In this document: one piece after another, positions 57,258-62,990 of the stretch
How the letters are laid out: each line of letters opens with the position of its first letter
Numbering within the stretch: position 1 is the stretch's first letter
Assembly (NCBI RefSeq): GCF_000715505.1
Contig: NZ_JHEH01000017.1
Span: forward strand, 1-64,000
Direction of reading: 5' to 3'
Origin: Thioclava dalianensis
GTDB lineage: Bacteria > Pseudomonadota > Alphaproteobacteria > Rhodobacterales > Rhodobacteraceae
DNA length: 64,000 bases
Program-made: the position numbers and the translations under genes
The notes under the pieces: generated by a model
Databases searched by the model: none
Told to the model about the DNA's origin: nothing
The model's input: only the letters and a program-made list of their open reading frames with translations

Positions 57258-57671
57258 TCAGAGCGCCATTTCCATGTCCTTATGCGCGATCCCGGCATCG
57301 TCATATTCCGCGCCATAAGCCGCAAAGCCCAGACGTTCGTAAAATCCAATCGCATAGCACTGCGCCGAGAGATAGGCGCGTGTGCAGCCGATCTCGCGCA
57401 GCCGTGCACAGCTTTCCCGAACGAGCGCCGCGCCAAGCCCGGTGCCACGTGCCTCACGGACAACGCAGATCCGACCGATCTTGCCGGTCTCGCCCACGCG
57501 GATCAGCCGGGCGGTCCCCAGAGGCGTGTCCTCCTCATGCGCGAGAAGATGGATGGCATCGACGTCGAGATCATCCCATTCGTCGGGCTCTGCGATGCCT
57601 TGCTCTTCGATGAAGACCGCCCGGCGCAGCGCATGGCAGGGCGCGAAATCGGTAACCTGTTCAATGATCAT
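57258..57671 (-). CDS. GNAT-family N-acetyltransferase
   Basis: A 137-residue acetyltransferase. [19 protein letters not shown] is the first helix-loop typical of the ElaA/YjdJ-like branch, and [18 protein letters not shown] holds the acetyl-CoA loop (R-G-T-G-L-G). [28 protein letters not shown] is a standard ending. Substrate unknown. It is coupled to dapE by a four-base ATGA overlap and is the last gene of that pair. Confidence 0.88.
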
Positions 57672-58810
57672 GCGAAATAGTCCTTCAATATGCGGGCATA
57701 GATCTGTTTGAGCGTCGCGATCTGCGCGATCGGGACCTGCTCGTCGATCTGGTGCATTCGGTCGCCCACAAGACCGAATTCGACGACCGGGCAGTGATCC
57801 TTGATGAAGCGCGCATCCGAGGTGCCGCCCGAGGTGGACAGTTCAGGCACCGTCCCGGTCTCGTCCGCGACCGCCTGTGCGACCAGATCGACGAAAGGTC
57901 CGGGCAGCGTCAGAAAGCTCTCGCCCGAGATATCGGGGGTGAGCGTGAGGGTAACACCGCTTTCGCGCGCGATGGTTTGGGCCAGATCGCTGGCCCATTT
58001 GATCAGCGATGCGCCGCTATGGGCATCGTTGAAACGGATATTCACGGTGGCCGTGGCGCGGGCCGGGATCACGTTATTGGCCGGATTGCCGCAATCAATC
58101 GTGGTGACTTGCAGCGTCGAGGGCTGGAAATGCGCGGTGCCGGTATCGAGGGGCTCGGCGGTCATCTGGCCCAGCAGATCCACCAGCGCATGCAGGGGGT
58201 TCAGCGCGCGATGCGGATAGGCTGCGTGGCCCTGCCGACCCTGCGCCTCGATGCGAAATGTCAGCGAGCCGCGCCGCCCGATCTTGATCATTTCGCCCAT
58301 CACCTCGGGGCAGGTCGGCTCTCCCACAAGACACACCGACATCGCCTCGCCCTGATCGGCCATGTAATCGAGCAAGGCGCGGGTGCCATCACGGCCCGGC
58401 CCTTCCTCGTCACCCGTGATCGCAAGCACGATGGCCCCGTCGGGCGGCGTGTCACGCACGTGATCTATCGCGGCGGCGGCAAAGGCGGCCACGGCGGTTT
58501 TCATATCCTGCGCACCGCGCCCCCAAAGGATTCCCTCTTCGATCTCGCCGCCGAAGGGATCGCGGCTCCAGGCTGCGGTATCGCCTGTCGGGACCACATC
58601 GGTATGGCCGTTGAACCCAAAGCTGCGCGCAGCCCCCTTTTCGCCCCAACGCGCAAACAGGTTGGGCGTGCCCGCGCGGTCCACGCGGGTGCAGTCAAAG
58701 CCCGCCTCGCTCAGCAGCTCGCCGAGCAGAACCAGCGCGCCGCCCTCTTCGGGGGTAACCGAGGGGCAGCGGATCAGATCGGCGCTCAGGGCGATGGCAT
58801 CGGTGGTCAT
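57668..58810 (-). CDS. dapE: Succinyl-diaminopimelate desuccinylase
   Basis: A 380-residue M20-family zinc hydrolase of lysine and diaminopimelate synthesis. [19 protein letters not shown] opens it; [12 protein letters not shown] (first zinc His), [15 protein letters not shown] (bridging Asp), [13 protein letters not shown] (catalytic Glu), and the ending [21 protein letters not shown] (last zinc ligands) are clear. It acts as a homodimer in the cytoplasm. ATG 58810 comes after AAGGAG. The first gene of a two-gene unit with the GNAT. Confidence 0.95.
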
Positions 58811-59080
58811 TGGCACTCCTTGCAACACTTGGCCCAAGGCTTAGACCGCCGCGGCGCACTGGGCAATGGCTGTTGCCGCTTGGACACCGGCGGTTCGTCG
58901 CATCAGCAAGCCTCTCGCCTTTTGCTAAAAACCTGTCATGATGGAAAAAAACGCACCCCGAGGCAGGGTGACACGAGCAGGGCAAAAGCCCCGACAGACG
59001 CAGTCAAGGCCGAATGGCCCGCGAGATGCGGCAATCGCCGTGCATGTGTTGCGCTGCCTTCGAGAAGATCGGAGGCACGA
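58811..59080. other. dapE upstream region
   Basis: 270 bases between dapE and the small ORF at 59081. It must contain promoters for both directions, but I see no clear motif. A short AT-rich part at 58918-58950 (TTTTGCTAAAAACCTGTCAT) could carry a -10. No gene of convincing quality is here. Confidence 0.4.
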
Positions 59081-59227
59081 ATGGCAGGACAATATTCGAA
59101 GCCCGTAGCAAACCGGGATCGGCGCATTGCGGGCGCGTGGCATCAGCGTGCCGCCGTGGCGCAGACAGGCCTTTCGCTCCTCCGGACGCCTCGTTTGAGT
59201 ACCTCGCAGGCAGGGGGTGAGGCATGA
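59081..59227 (+). CDS. Probable 48-residue protein coupled to the Hint gene
   Basis: A short ORF that begins ATG 59081, five bases after a perfect GGAGG (59071-59075), and whose TGA (59225-59227) overlaps the next ATG (59224) by four bases. The product starts MAGQYSKPVANRDRRIAG and is basic, with no cysteine, signal peptide or membrane helix. I recognise no family. The strong ribosome-binding site and coupling suggest it is either a real small protein or a leader that controls translation of the Hint gene, which has no own Shine-Dalgarno of similar strength. Confidence 0.5.
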   Translation: MAGQYSKPVANRDRRIAGAWHQRAAVAQTGLSLLRTPRLSTSQAGGEA

Positions 59228-60327
59228 GCGAGAGCAAGGGCTGGATTGCCGCCCATGACCCGACGCACGGCTCTTTCCGCTTTACTGATCGCCCGCTGCC
59301 CGTGCTGCTGCCTCAGGGCACCTTGATGCTCGAGTTCAATCTCGTGCGAGGCGAGACCGGGCCGCTCTCGCTGGTTCAGCTGGAGCATCGCACCGCCGCG
59401 TGGCGTGCTTTCCTCTCGCTTTCTCTGGACGGTCATGGACGGATCACGCTGACTCAAAGGCGGGGCGATGAGGTGCGGTCGATCTCGCTCGATGCGAGCG
59501 CGGAATTGATGACCGGTGGGCGGATGCGGATGAGTTGGCGCTGGGATGGGCCCGGTCGGGAAGGGTTGCTGACGCTCAAGGCGCTCGATCACGGCAGTCT
59601 GCGGCAACATTCCATCAATGCGCCCCTGCCGATGACGCGCGATGAAGCGATGGCGCTGGTCAGTGGCGACGGGCGGGCGCGTATCGGCCCGCGCGTGATC
59701 TGGCTGGCGATCGGGGATCACCTGCATCCGCTGGGCCCGGGCGCCTGCTTTGCGCCCTCCACGCCAATCGAGACGCCGAACGGTCCGCGACCGGCCGCGC
59801 ATCTCAAGGCGGGAGATGAGGTGCTGACCGCAGATGCCGGGGTGCAGGAAGTGATCTGGTCGGGCCGGGTCTCGCTGCCCGCGCTGGGACAGCTGCGCCC
59901 GGTGCAATTGCGCGCGCCGGTCTTTGCCGAGACCCGCGATCTATGGCTTTTGCCGCAGCATCATATTGCCGTGGGCGGGCCATCGGTCGATTTCCTCCTC
60001 GGCGAAGACAAGGTTCTGATCGAAGCGCGCCATCTGGTGGATGGCTGCACCGCGCTGCAACCTGATCGCCCCGCCCTGTTGAGTTGGCAGGGGCTGCTGC
60101 TGCGCGGGCACCATTTGTTGATCGCCGATGGCTGCGAAATCGAGAGCCTGCAAATCGGCGGCCTCGCCCGGCGGCCTCTTCTGGCAGCGACCACCGCACT
60201 CTCGGCCTTGGCGCGGGCGGGTACCTTGCCGCTGCATAGCAAGCCTGCGATCAAGATTGCCAGCGAATACGAGGCGGCGACGCTGGCCTCCGCGCGGCGT
60301 CAGAGAAGTGGGCCGGTGGCTGCCTGA
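59224..60327 (+). CDS. Hint-domain (Hint_2) protein with LamG-like N-terminus
   Basis: A 367-residue protein. Residues 1-165 form a beta-rich region that resembles a concanavalin/LamG fold (FRFTDRPLPVLLPQGTLMLEF, LSLDGHGRITLTQRRGD). From C175 (GACFAPSTPIETPNGPRP) runs a Hint domain with AAHLKAGDEVLTADAGVQEVIWSG and LLPQHHIAV. Cys175 would be the nucleophile of self-cleavage. Such stand-alone Hint proteins are multi-copy in Rhodobacterales and their role is unknown. No signal peptide is visible. Cleavage at C175 would free a 174-residue N-part. Confidence 0.82.
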   Translation: MSESKGWIAAHDPTHGSFRFTDRPLPVLLPQGTLMLEFNLVRGETGPLSLVQLEHRTAAWRAFLSLSLDGHGRITLTQRRGDEVRSISLDASAELMTGGRMRMSWRWDGPGREGLLTLKALDHGSLRQHSINAPLPMTRDEAMALVSGDGRARIGPRVIWLAIGDHLHPLGPGACFAPSTPIETPNGPRPAAHLKAGDEVLTADAGVQEVIWSGRVSLPALGQLRPVQLRAPVFAETRDLWLLPQHHIAVGGPSVDFLLGEDKVLIEARHLVDGCTALQPDRPALLSWQGLLLRGHHLLIADGCEIESLQIGGLARRPLLAATTALSALARAGTLPLHSKPAIKIASEYEAATLASARRQRSGPVAA

Positions 60328-60349
60328 GCCGCGCGCGCCCTCCCCCGGG

Positions 60350-61108
60350 TCAGCCCATCAGTGCGCGGCGCACCAGATTGGCCCCCGCAATTGCGAGCAG
60401 GATCAGCGTCAGGCGGCGGAACATCACCGGGTCCAACCGGTCTTGTGCTGCAAATCCGAGCCGCTGCCCAAGCAGTGCGGGCGCGACCATCAGCGCCGAA
60501 AGCGGGATGGTCTGCGCATTGAGTACGCCCGAGACGAGATGCGCGCCGGCCAAGATGATCGCCCCGATCAGGAACACCACGCCCTGAATGCGCACGGCCT
60601 CTTGCTTGGGGGCCTCAATCGACAAGAGATAGACGATGAGCGGCGGCCCCCAGATCCCCGAGATTCCGCCATAAAGCCCGCCGATCACGCCCAGCCCCCC
60701 TTCGGTCAGGCGGCGGTGGTGCATCGGCAGGATCAAGGGCTTGCCCGAAAGCTGCCAAAGCGCGAAGGCCACGATCGGCCCGCCCAGCAGCCCATACATC
60801 ACCCCTTGCGGGACCGTCTGCACAAAACCCGCGCTGATCGGAATGAAGAGGACGATCATGGCGATGAAGATCCGATAGCTGCGGATCGAGCCCCAGGCCG
60901 CGCCGATGCCTTGCCGCGACGCTTGCAAGATATTGGTGACCAGCGTGGGCAGAATCAACAGCGCAAGGGCCAGCTCTGCGGGCAGGAACGACGCGAAGCT
61001 CGAGAGCATGATCATCGGCATGGCAAACCCCACCGCGCCTTTGACGAACCCCGCAAACAGTGTGACAGCGAGCGCAACGGCGATCTGCCAAATCTCCATT
61101 CCAGCCAT
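60350..61108 (-). CDS. Second TauE/SafE family membrane protein
   Basis: A 252-residue protein of about seven or eight helices, shorter than the first TauE-like protein at 22609. FAGFVKGAVGFAMPMIMLSSF is the first signature, GGLYGGISGIWGPPLIVYL the second. No cysteine-rich loop. The substrate is not shown; sulfite or organic sulfonates are family choices. ATG 61108 after GGGAGG. It is divergent from mcd, over 217 bases, and converges on the Hint gene with 22 bases. Confidence 0.85.
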   Translation of the reverse strand: MAGMEIWQIAVALAVTLFAGFVKGAVGFAMPMIMLSSFASFLPAELALALLILPTLVTNILQASRQGIGAAWGSIRSYRIFIAMIVLFIPISAGFVQTVPQGVMYGLLGGPIVAFALWQLSGKPLILPMHHRRLTEGGLGVIGGLYGGISGIWGPPLIVYLLSIEAPKQEAVRIQGVVFLIGAIILAGAHLVSGVLNAQTIPLSALMVAPALLGQRLGFAAQDRLDPVMFRRLTLILLAIAGANLVRRALMG

Positions 61109-61265
61109 GGCGGCCTCCCTTTTATGAAGGGTTCTAGCGGGTTTGTCGGCCAAGGCCAGCCTTGCGTGACGCCGACGCCTAAGCAGGTGGCATTTCAGCA
61201 CTGGCCCCCGCGAAAAATTTCGTTGCGACACAATTGATCGATTTCAGCTTTTTACGCGCATTTTT

Positions 61266-61283
61266 ATTGCGCTGTGACTGCAA
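61266..61283. promoter_or_regulatory. TTGC-N9-GCAA inverted repeat before mcd
   Basis: ATTGCGC (61266-61272) followed by GCAA (61280-61283), an inverted repeat TTGC/GCAA. Its left arm is the same heptamer as in the ecm palindrome (28053-28059). It is 43 bases before ATG 61326. It may be a weak site of the same regulator. Confidence 0.3.
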
Positions 61284-61325
61284 ACACCCTATCCATGATG
61301 CAACCGCAGAAACGGAGGCCGATTC

Positions 61326-62990
61326 ATGGCGCATGATGGAGCTGAAATGCCAATGACGATCATCCTCGATGACATCACATCCCTCAGCGGGGCCTGCCTG
61401 CCCGAGCTTGAGGCGCTTGTCGCGCGCGCGACCGAGGCGCTCCGGGGCACAGTCACACGCGACGGGCGGGTTTCGGCCACGGCTCTCGAGACGCATCAAT
61501 ATCAAGCGCATGGGGTGGCATGGCTTGCGACTTATCACCAGGCGCTGGTGCAGCTTCACGCCTGGGCGCTGCGGCTCTCTGAGGCGGGCACGCTGGGCGA
61601 TATGGAGCGGCTGATCTTGCAGATCGGGTTCGGCGAGTATCTGGCCCAGATCGCGGGCGGCCTGCAGATGAATCAGGGCGAGATGGTGCGCCTGTCGGAT
61701 ATGGGGATCGACTGGACCCCATCCGACGCCGCAGCGACGCTGATTGCGCAGGGCAATTCCAACGCCGCGCGCATGGCGCTGGTGGCGCTGATCCGCGATG
61801 TGCAGGGCCGCTCGATCTTTGGCCAATCCGGGCTGGATGACGAGCTGGAGATGATCCGCGAGCAATTCTACCGCTACGCCGAGGACCGGGTGAAGCCCTT
61901 CGCCCATGAATGGCACCTCAAGGACGAGTTGATCCCGATTTCGGTGATCGAGGAACTGGCCGAGCTGGGCGTGTTCGGCCTGACCATCCCCGAAGCCTAT
62001 GGCGGGCTCGGCCTGTCCAAGGCCTCCATGGCCGTGGTCACCGAGGAACTCTCGCGCGGCTATATCGGCGTGGGCTCACTGGGCACGCGCTCCGAAATCG
62101 CCGCCGAGCTGATCATCTGCGGTGGCACCGAGGCGCAAAAAGAGAAATGGCTCCCGGGCCTTGCAAGCGGCGAGATCCTGTCGACGGCGGTGTTCACAGA
62201 GCCCAATACCGGCTCGGATCTGGGCGCCTTGCGCACCCGCGCGGTCAAAGATGGCGACGATTGGCTGGTGACTGGCAACAAGACCTGGATCACCCATGCC
62301 CAGCGGACCCATGTCATGACGCTGCTGGCACGCACCGACCCGGAGAGCATCGATTACAAAGGCCTGTCGATGTTTCTGGCCGAGAAAGAGCCGGGCACCG
62401 ATGACACTCCCTTCCCGACGCCCGGCATGACCGGCGGCGAGATCGAGGTGCTGGGCTATCGCGGCATGAAGGAATACGAGCTGGCCTTTGACGGGTTCAA
62501 GGTCCGGGGCGAGAACCTGCTGGGCGGCGCGGAAGGGCGCGGTTTCAAGCAATTGATGGAGACCTTCGAGAGTGCGCGAATTCAGACCGCCGCGCGCGCC
62601 GTGGGCGTGGCGCAATCCGCGCTTGAAAGTGGCATGCAATATGCCATCGACCGCAAGCAATTCGGCAAATCGCTGATCGCCTTTCCCCGTGTCGCCTCCA
62701 AGCTTGCGATGATGGCCGTGGAAGTGATGATTGCCCGCCAGCTCACCTATTTCTCGGCTTGGGAAAAGGATCACGGGCACCGCTGCGACCTTGAGGCCGG
62801 GATGGCGAAGCTGCTGGGGGCGCGGGTCGCGTGGGCTGCGGCGGATAATGCGCTGCAAATCCATGGCGGCAACGGCTTCGCGCTGGAATACCAGATCTCG
62901 CGCATCCTATGCGACGCCCGGATCCTCAATATCTTCGAGGGCGCCGCCGAGATTCAAGCACAAGTGATTGCGCGGCGTCTGCTCGGGTGA
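61326..62990 (+). CDS. mcd: (2S)-methylsuccinyl-CoA dehydrogenase
   Basis: A 554-residue acyl-CoA dehydrogenase with a 160-residue N-terminal extension that plain acyl-CoA dehydrogenases lack. This is typical of Mcd. AVFTEPNTGSDLGALRTRA and TGNKTWITHAQRTHVMTLL bind FAD; IQTAARAVGVAQSALESGMQYA and FGKSLIAFPRVASKLAMM follow; NALQIHGGNGFALEYQISRIL and NIFEGAAEIQ near the end. It oxidises methylsuccinyl-CoA to mesaconyl-CoA after Ecm. Electrons go to ETF. ATG 61326 follows GGAGG by seven bases. Assignment rests on the extension and on ecm/ccr nearby. Confidence 0.88.
   Translation: MAHDGAEMPMTIILDDITSLSGACLPELEALVARATEALRGTVTRDGRVSATALETHQYQAHGVAWLATYHQALVQLHAWALRLSEAGTLGDMERLILQIGFGEYLAQIAGGLQMNQGEMVRLSDMGIDWTPSDAAATLIAQGNSNAARMALVALIRDVQGRSIFGQSGLDDELEMIREQFYRYAEDRVKPFAHEWHLKDELIPISVIEELAELGVFGLTIPEAYGGLGLSKASMAVVTEELSRGYIGVGSLGTRSEIAAELIICGGTEAQKEKWLPGLASGEILSTAVFTEPNTGSDLGALRTRAVKDGDDWLVTGNKTWITHAQRTHVMTLLARTDPESIDYKGLSMFLAEKEPGTDDTPFPTPGMTGGEIEVLGYRGMKEYELAFDGFKVRGENLLGGAEGRGFKQLMETFESARIQTAARAVGVAQSALESGMQYAIDRKQFGKSLIAFPRVASKLAMMAVEVMIARQLTYFSAWEKDHGHRCDLEAGMAKLLGARVAWAAADNALQIHGGNGFALEYQISRILCDARILNIFEGAAEIQAQVIARRLLG

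Follow-up and report, generated by a model that had tools for sequence, protein, structure and literature searches.

Coupled leader ORFs and leaders that hide an SD are already known, and several described systems bear on the locus considered here. Among overlapping gene pairs of E. coli, Huber et al. (2019, PMC6728339) report that all those analysed were coupled, with one exception, and that reinitiation fell in four of five pairs when the internal SD was taken away; the coupling step invoked below thus has general support. The SAM/SAH element of Rhodobacterales, which lies upstream of metK (PMC2864571), exemplifies structured leaders with a regulatory role. In CutF/CutO of Rhodobacter (PMC9973294), the exported CutF protein has a C-terminus of stalling type, and the SD of the downstream gene is shielded by a stem-loop.

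The locus described here lies in a 64,000-nucleotide stretch of Thioclava dalianensis DNA (the window) and consists of a leader RNA, a 48-codon ORF and a gene for a Hint-domain protein, which we call hintB (Table 1). It resembles the termination-reinitiation overlaps of Huber et al. in its 4-nt ATGA and in the downstream SD lying inside the upstream ORF; unlike those pairs, its upstream cistron occupies the place of a deleted gene and is without recognisable sequence of its own, and its coupling is putative. It has in common with the SAM/SAH element a structured leader in one alphaproteobacterial group directly before one gene, but differs in its hintA/hintB context and in lacking any Rfam hit up to E 1, while with CutF/CutO, which come from the same order of bacteria, it shares an upstream ORF and an SD-hiding stem-loop, although here the 48-codon peptide is unconserved and the hairpin hides the SD of the ORF itself. 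Choice-of-anchor-L plus Hint_2 proteins are a further point of reference: the two HintA proteins scanned match both domains and hintB matches Hint_2, whereas the species of the window has lost HintA. In the literature searched, where coverage of subscription papers was slight and the evidence accordingly weak, we found neither an eroded first cistron relaying a leader switch nor the hint leader RNA; searches on the Hint domain in Rhodobacterales or Thioclava, on choice-of-anchor L with Hint, on small-ORF leaders with translational coupling in Rhodobacter, and on structured 5' UTR RNAs of Rhodobacteraceae found nothing.

Table 1. Features of the hint locus and its neighbors, in coordinates of the window.
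Feature	Position	Strand	Remarks
dapE-like M20 peptidase gene	57668..58807	-	PF01546 + PF07687; divergent neighbor anchoring synteny
Leader RNA element (model R1), to the ATG of the ORF	58954..59083	+	87.4 bits, E 6.6e-23; one of 18 seed rows
P1 outer 5' strand GAGGCAG	58960..58966	+	partner of the anti-SD strand
P1 inner 5' strand GTGACAC	58968..58974	+	pairs with 59046-59052; covarying part
Core word GAGCAG, then hairpin GGGCAAAAGCCC	58975..58991	+	
P1 inner 3' strand	59046..59052	+	
Anti-SD strand CTGCCTTCGA	59054..59063	+	common to P1 and the SD hairpin
SD arm TCGGAGGCA of hairpin TGCCTTCGA-GAAGA-TCGGAGGCA	59069..59077	+	contains GGAGG 59071-59075, the SD of the ORF
48-codon ORF	59081..59227	+	ATG at 59081, TGA at 59225-59227; occupies the ancestral start site of hintA; first cistron, eroded or replaced
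Wobble SD AGGGGGTGA of hintB, inside the 48-codon ORF	59212..59220	+	predicted anti-SD pairing
ATGA stop/start overlap, 48-codon ORF/hintB	59224..59227	+	4 nt, read from the sequence
hintB, 367 aa	59224..60327	+	Hint_2 domain (PF13403) at residues 175-312
TauE/SafE-family permease gene	60350..61231	-	PF01925; right-hand synteny anchor

The 48-codon ORF, the GGAGG at a proper distance and the 4-base overlap with the Hint gene, on which a first-pass annotation had remarked, are all present in the sequence: the spacer between GGAGG and ATG is 5 nt, and ORF and hintB share, on the same strand, the stop/start overlap expected of a coupled pair. When the dapE-hintB gap was shuffled 4000 times with its dinucleotides preserved, 39% of the shuffles contained an ATG ORF of at least 8 codons ending in that ATGA, 6.8% one preceded by a 4-nt SD-like word, and 0.7% one with GGAGG or AGGAG, so that a bare overlapping ORF is unremarkable and one furnished with an SD is remarkable. 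The open frame as such is uninformative, because an ORF of 491 codons in the same frame extends antisense through dapE. A scan of 58700-60500 for sigma-70 promoters found no site (0.1 expected). On the minus strand, 58954-58970 read as a terminator-like hairpin with a T run, formed by sequence complementary to the conserved 5' leader element and to the A-rich segment that precedes it; one such structure was found against 1.1 expected, and it is possibly due to chance. The Hint_2 score of hintB exceeds the curated cut-off (108.3 against 28.4 bits), and it has a match at E <=1e-60 in 13 of 16 Thioclava genomes, its own included. The genome of the window also contains a set of Hint_2 paralogues: the Hint protein has ten hits there at E <=0.001.

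We compared 96 loci, namely 80 loci from 79 genomes, 15 further loci and the window; the 80 were chosen by hand, chiefly among the leading entries, some of which were passed over, from a list of 145 hintB-matching genomes of the family out of 394 searched. A search of named genomes with hintB as query found none, and the plasmids searched gave no match. Upstream of hintB lies dapE in 96 of the 96 loci fetched, which were picked by hintB and not by dapE, and tauE follows on the minus strand in 15 of 16 loci inspected, not being seen in G061. This comparison points to dapE(-)/hintA/hintB as the ancestral order, with hintA present in 63 loci and missing from 33. HintA, of about 520 aa, joins a choice-of-anchor-L domain (NF038133) to a Hint_2 domain (PF13403), both being matched by each of the two HintA proteins scanned. 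In T. indica (G002) and G005 a HintA of 518 aa ends in the same ATGA overlap as the 48-codon ORF, and since 22 of the 53 hintA-bearing loci with both ends determined show the 4-nt hintA/hintB overlap, T. indica, G005, G004 and G061 among them, the junction was probably inherited. Furthermore, the leader and ATG of the window align with those of G009 (77% over 162 nt), in which the first ORF encodes a HintA reduced to 107 aa by an internal deletion. The five HintA matches at E <=1e-30 in the genome of the window cover only the C-terminal half (residues 261-515), which argues that no full-length HintA has moved elsewhere in that genome.

On a tree of DapE the hintA label changes 22 times (20-23 over a bootstrap that is not fully settled), and at least ten of these changes are forced by well-supported branches. 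Within Thioclava the hintA-less lineages, namely G009, an eight-member clade and the window, are separated from one another by supported branches, and G002 and G005, which have hintA, lie between them; by parsimony this amounts to three losses in the genus. Two loci deserve separate mention: in L077 (G132) HintA is matched from residue 218 onward only and the leader still gives a weak match (15.3 bits, E 0.076), which may reflect a further partial loss of hintA, and L155, a metagenome-assembled genome record titled Sphingomonadales and perhaps wrongly labelled, has a hintA of 60% identity together with a leader match of 54.6 bits.

We then considered what the losses of hintA leave behind. A short ORF of 3-107 codons stopping -2 to +4 nt from the hintB start is found in 23 of 32 hintA-less loci. 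In Thioclava, nine of ten such loci carry an ATG ORF ending in ATGA, with lengths of 48, 107, 15 and 15 codons and, five times, 11 codons; in the tenth (G015) the ORF and hintB form an in-frame fusion. Outside the genus, 11 of 22 have an ATG ORF of at least 3 codons with the 4-nt overlap (5.4 expected, P 0.007) and three more a 1-nt overlap or gap, so that in all 14 stop within -2 to +4 nt (6.3 expected; none of 300 shuffle sets was as high), and six of the ORFs have an SD against 1.1 expected. Overlap and SD occur together in four of four Thioclava representatives, with 0.28 expected. This shuffle control covered 22 of the 23 non-Thioclava loci without hintA (G065 was left out) and four of the ten from Thioclava, and inherited start and stop codons will raise ORF counts over shuffles without any present selection. 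The hintB start was not found in 7 of the 96 loci. In eight of the 22 non-Thioclava loci (G124, G215, G339, G123b, G445, G226, G328 and G042, the hintB start of G123b being doubtful) no ATG ORF ends in that interval around the hintB start, although G339 and G226 have one that ends 7 and 12 nt short of hintB, respectively. As a separate observation, the hintA start site seems to have been turned into that of hintB through the in-frame fusion in L045 (G015) and in L078 (G124), where the leader directly precedes hintB.

In other lineages HintA is shortened to 214 (G036, an intermediate length), 107 (G009), 81 (G314) and 31 aa (G292), so that some of the ORFs are evident remnants of HintA. Among 17 ORFs tested against HintA, those of G314 (81 codons) and G292 (31 codons) alone exceeded every shuffle, matching HintA N-termini above all 60, with G226 borderline. 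The 214-aa HintA of G036 (L233, 1799 onward; outside the 96 loci) ends 1 nt before hintB, lies behind a leader match of E 4.2e-4 and, by eye, keeps both N- and C-terminal parts. The 48-codon body in the window, by contrast, retains no trace of HintA (protein P about 1.00; DNA ends P 0.06-0.22), and for this reason we claim homology for the leader, the start site and the junction only.

A further question is whether the 48 residues act as a protein. The first-pass annotation had offered two readings of the ORF, a partner of the Hint protein, which it assumed to be self-cleaving, or a translational leader; it had noticed neither that the start site is that of a deleted upstream Hint gene nor the switch-like leader. 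A functional peptide would fit the good SD, the good start codon and the location beside hintB. However, the 48 residues have no relative in their own genome (next best E 0.147) and match neither Pfam nor NCBIfam; in a search of 41 genomes their DNA finds only short matches, the best besides itself covering 43 nt in G008 (E 2.7e-4, a per-genome value). The GC3 of the ORF, 0.62 against 0.77-0.78 in hintB and dapE, falls below every one of 651 overlapping 48-codon windows of those two genes, and ORFs at the same site in other species, of 3-107 codons, are by eye unlike one another outside close relatives. With neither relatives nor coding-like GC3 nor a HintA trace, a partner protein is unlikely, and we have set aside a functional peptide as very improbable. 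Across related Hint loci the position and the stop/start junction, the latter often with an SD, recur and the peptide sequence is not shared; this pattern supports a translational leader.

A leader peptide whose nascent chain stalls the ribosome, in the manner of CutF or SecM, would be a special case. In its favor, the ORF precedes hintB, and the lost partner of hintB had a choice-of-anchor-L domain, which may point to export. Against this, no shared residues or C-terminal motif were seen among the ORFs of related loci, which range over 3-107 codons and by eye have no sequence in common outside close relatives, and the 48 residues match no family, so that the conserved peptide or motif of a stalling uORF is missing; moreover, the conserved hairpin covers the SD of the ORF and not that of the downstream gene, the predicted pairing of which varies with the stretch folded. 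We therefore consider a sensing peptide highly improbable as well.

The leader itself is a different matter. A covariance model (R1) was built from 18 leaders picked by eye for a clear P1 helix from 72 start sites, and the pair counts of this seed lean towards structure because its rows were so chosen. A whole-genome search with R1 places the leader of the window at G000:C17:58954-59083 (E 6.1e-22). Unguided RNAalifold on a MAFFT alignment of the 18 leaders returned one helix, P1, made of GAGGCAG/CUGYCUY and an inner covarying part. In P1 93.3% of cells are paired and 20 show double changes, where shuffles give 8.1 (0/500 as high), and the SD hairpin has 91.8% pairing and a covariation of 0.363 against 0.285 (2/500), while registers slid by 1-3 columns leave both helices at 60% pairing or less. 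Counted by pairs, double changes were no more numerous than in shuffles of the 18 rows, nor were further pair types in P1. The two helices are mutually exclusive and both covary, as the CUGCCUU strand can pair either with the 5' GAGGCAG in P1 or with the SD.

A second set, which gives a wider and better test, comprised 80 named loci found by the HintA protein alone and kept from 580 in a HintA alignment search. In 56 of them R1 matches at E <=0.01, each match starting upstream of hintA, and in the alignment of these 56, which was fitted to R1 and in which at least seven rows are seed loci by their identical scores, P1 has 54 double-change cells against 20.7 in shuffles. The SD hairpin, the columns of which R1 holds as sequence and not as pairs, scores on average 7.0, where shuffled flanks give 4.4, and reaches P <=0.05 in 34 of the 56, and the word GAG[CT][AG]G inside P1 is found in 40 of these 56 relatives against 7.0 expected. 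Over the 96 loci R1 matches 52 at E <=0.01, comprising 44 of 63 with hintA and 8 of 33 without; 18 of the 52 are seeds, as are two of the eight. Within Thioclava, inspection by eye shows interrupted P1 and anti-SD strands in G001, in G003 and in the G014 group. A known RNA family was rejected, as Rfam gave no match at E up to 1 to 57500-61500 of the window or to the loci of eight relatives. So was a wider R1 regulon: under strict filters, which also missed several genomes whose leader locus was known, R1 found 11 places at E <0.1 in 61 genomes, all at the hint locus and G036 among them, and five other places at E >=0.168. A few dozen nt before the leader element, TTAACA-type words are visible by eye in G053, G020, G304 and others, resembling CtrA half-sites.

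Folding predictions bear on which of the two helices would form. In the window the two states are predicted at -52.9 and -53.9 kcal/mol, 1 kcal/mol apart, the ensemble probability being 0.80 for P1 and 0.20 for the SD hairpin, and P1, which leaves the SD free, is predicted to prevail in 11 of 11 leaders computed (0.70-1.00, the SD hairpin reaching at most 0.28). As P1 prevails in the window and ten relatives, the default state is predicted to be open, and hiding of the SD would need a trigger.

What emerges from comparing the sequences is thus a lost gene, a homologous leader and start site, a junction, and covarying, mutually exclusive helices. We propose, as the probable though by no means certain explanation, that the ORF is a leader cistron at the initiation site of the lost hintA, which relays the switch in the leader to hintB and whose peptide is functionless; it may be kept by selection or persist passively at the hintA start site. 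Ribosomes would load at the GGAGG of the ORF, which the leader RNA would expose when the anti-SD strand is in P1 or hide when that strand is paired to the SD. By translating the ORF they would open the structured start region of hintB, terminate in ATGA and reinitiate on hintB with help from the internal SD, so that hintB would remain under the leader switch despite the loss of the first gene. Transcription and translation of the ORF, the coupling, the switching and its trigger are what we infer in this scheme.

The SD of hintB complicates the picture. The first-pass annotation held that the Hint gene had no ribosome-binding site equal to that of the ORF, which our predictions contradict: the anti-SD duplex of AGGGGGTGA is computed at -15.1 kcal/mol and that of the ORF at -11.4, energies which rest on an assumed 16S tail sequence. 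Coupling may thus be dispensable, hintB having a predicted strong SD of its own. This SD is in turn predicted to be paired in 8 of 9 bases in a 216-nt fold and 5 of 9 in a 131-nt fold, values without a shuffle control. In the two hintA-bearing relatives computed the hintB SD is predicted to be weak (-2.5 in G002, -4.0 in G005), as it also is in G009 (-3.9), and in G001 and G003, both without hintA, it is predicted to be strong (-10.7). Leader and ORF could hence be decaying remains of hintA, with hintB translated alone from AGGGGGTGA and the overlap and ORF without a role. The stronger predicted SD of hintB, the ease with which an overlapping ORF lacking an SD arises by chance, the missing codon signature of the ORF, and the 25 of 33 hintA-less loci with no R1 match at E <=0.01 all agree with such a scar, but the leader of the window still scores 87.4 bits with both helices intact, short ORFs stopping at the hintB start recur above chance where hintA is gone, and the hintB SD is predicted to be partly paired; we regard a mere scar as possible but doubtful. 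Retention of this leader after the loss of hintA speaks against HintA regulating its own gene and in favor of hintB as a regulated target, provided that the loss is not so recent that decay is yet to be seen; the 25 loci without a leader match are a counterpoint to hintB being that target.

Returning to the leader cistron, we also entertain a bolder version, in which the leader is a new class of riboswitch in Rhodobacteraceae controlling a two-gene Hint operon, and selection has preserved a minimal relay ORF after repeated losses of hintA. P1 would then close a multi-hairpin core with the GAGCAG word, and the exchange between P1 and the SD hairpin would be the expression platform. A covarying structure and an alternative helix hiding the SD, as sought in a riboswitch, are both found, but P1 is predicted to prevail; we offer this version tentatively, and on balance it is unlikely. 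Were it true, a minimal ORF without a sequence of its own would serve as a mechanical relay, through which the switch still controls hintB. The hint loci document many separate losses of one gene, at about 520, 214, 107, 81, 48, 31 and 11-18 codons, in which the junction often survives, and this series makes selection for an ORF purely for coupling directly testable. The leader RNA, with two exclusive helices at most of the hintA loci examined and no match in Rfam, is a candidate for ligand hunting.
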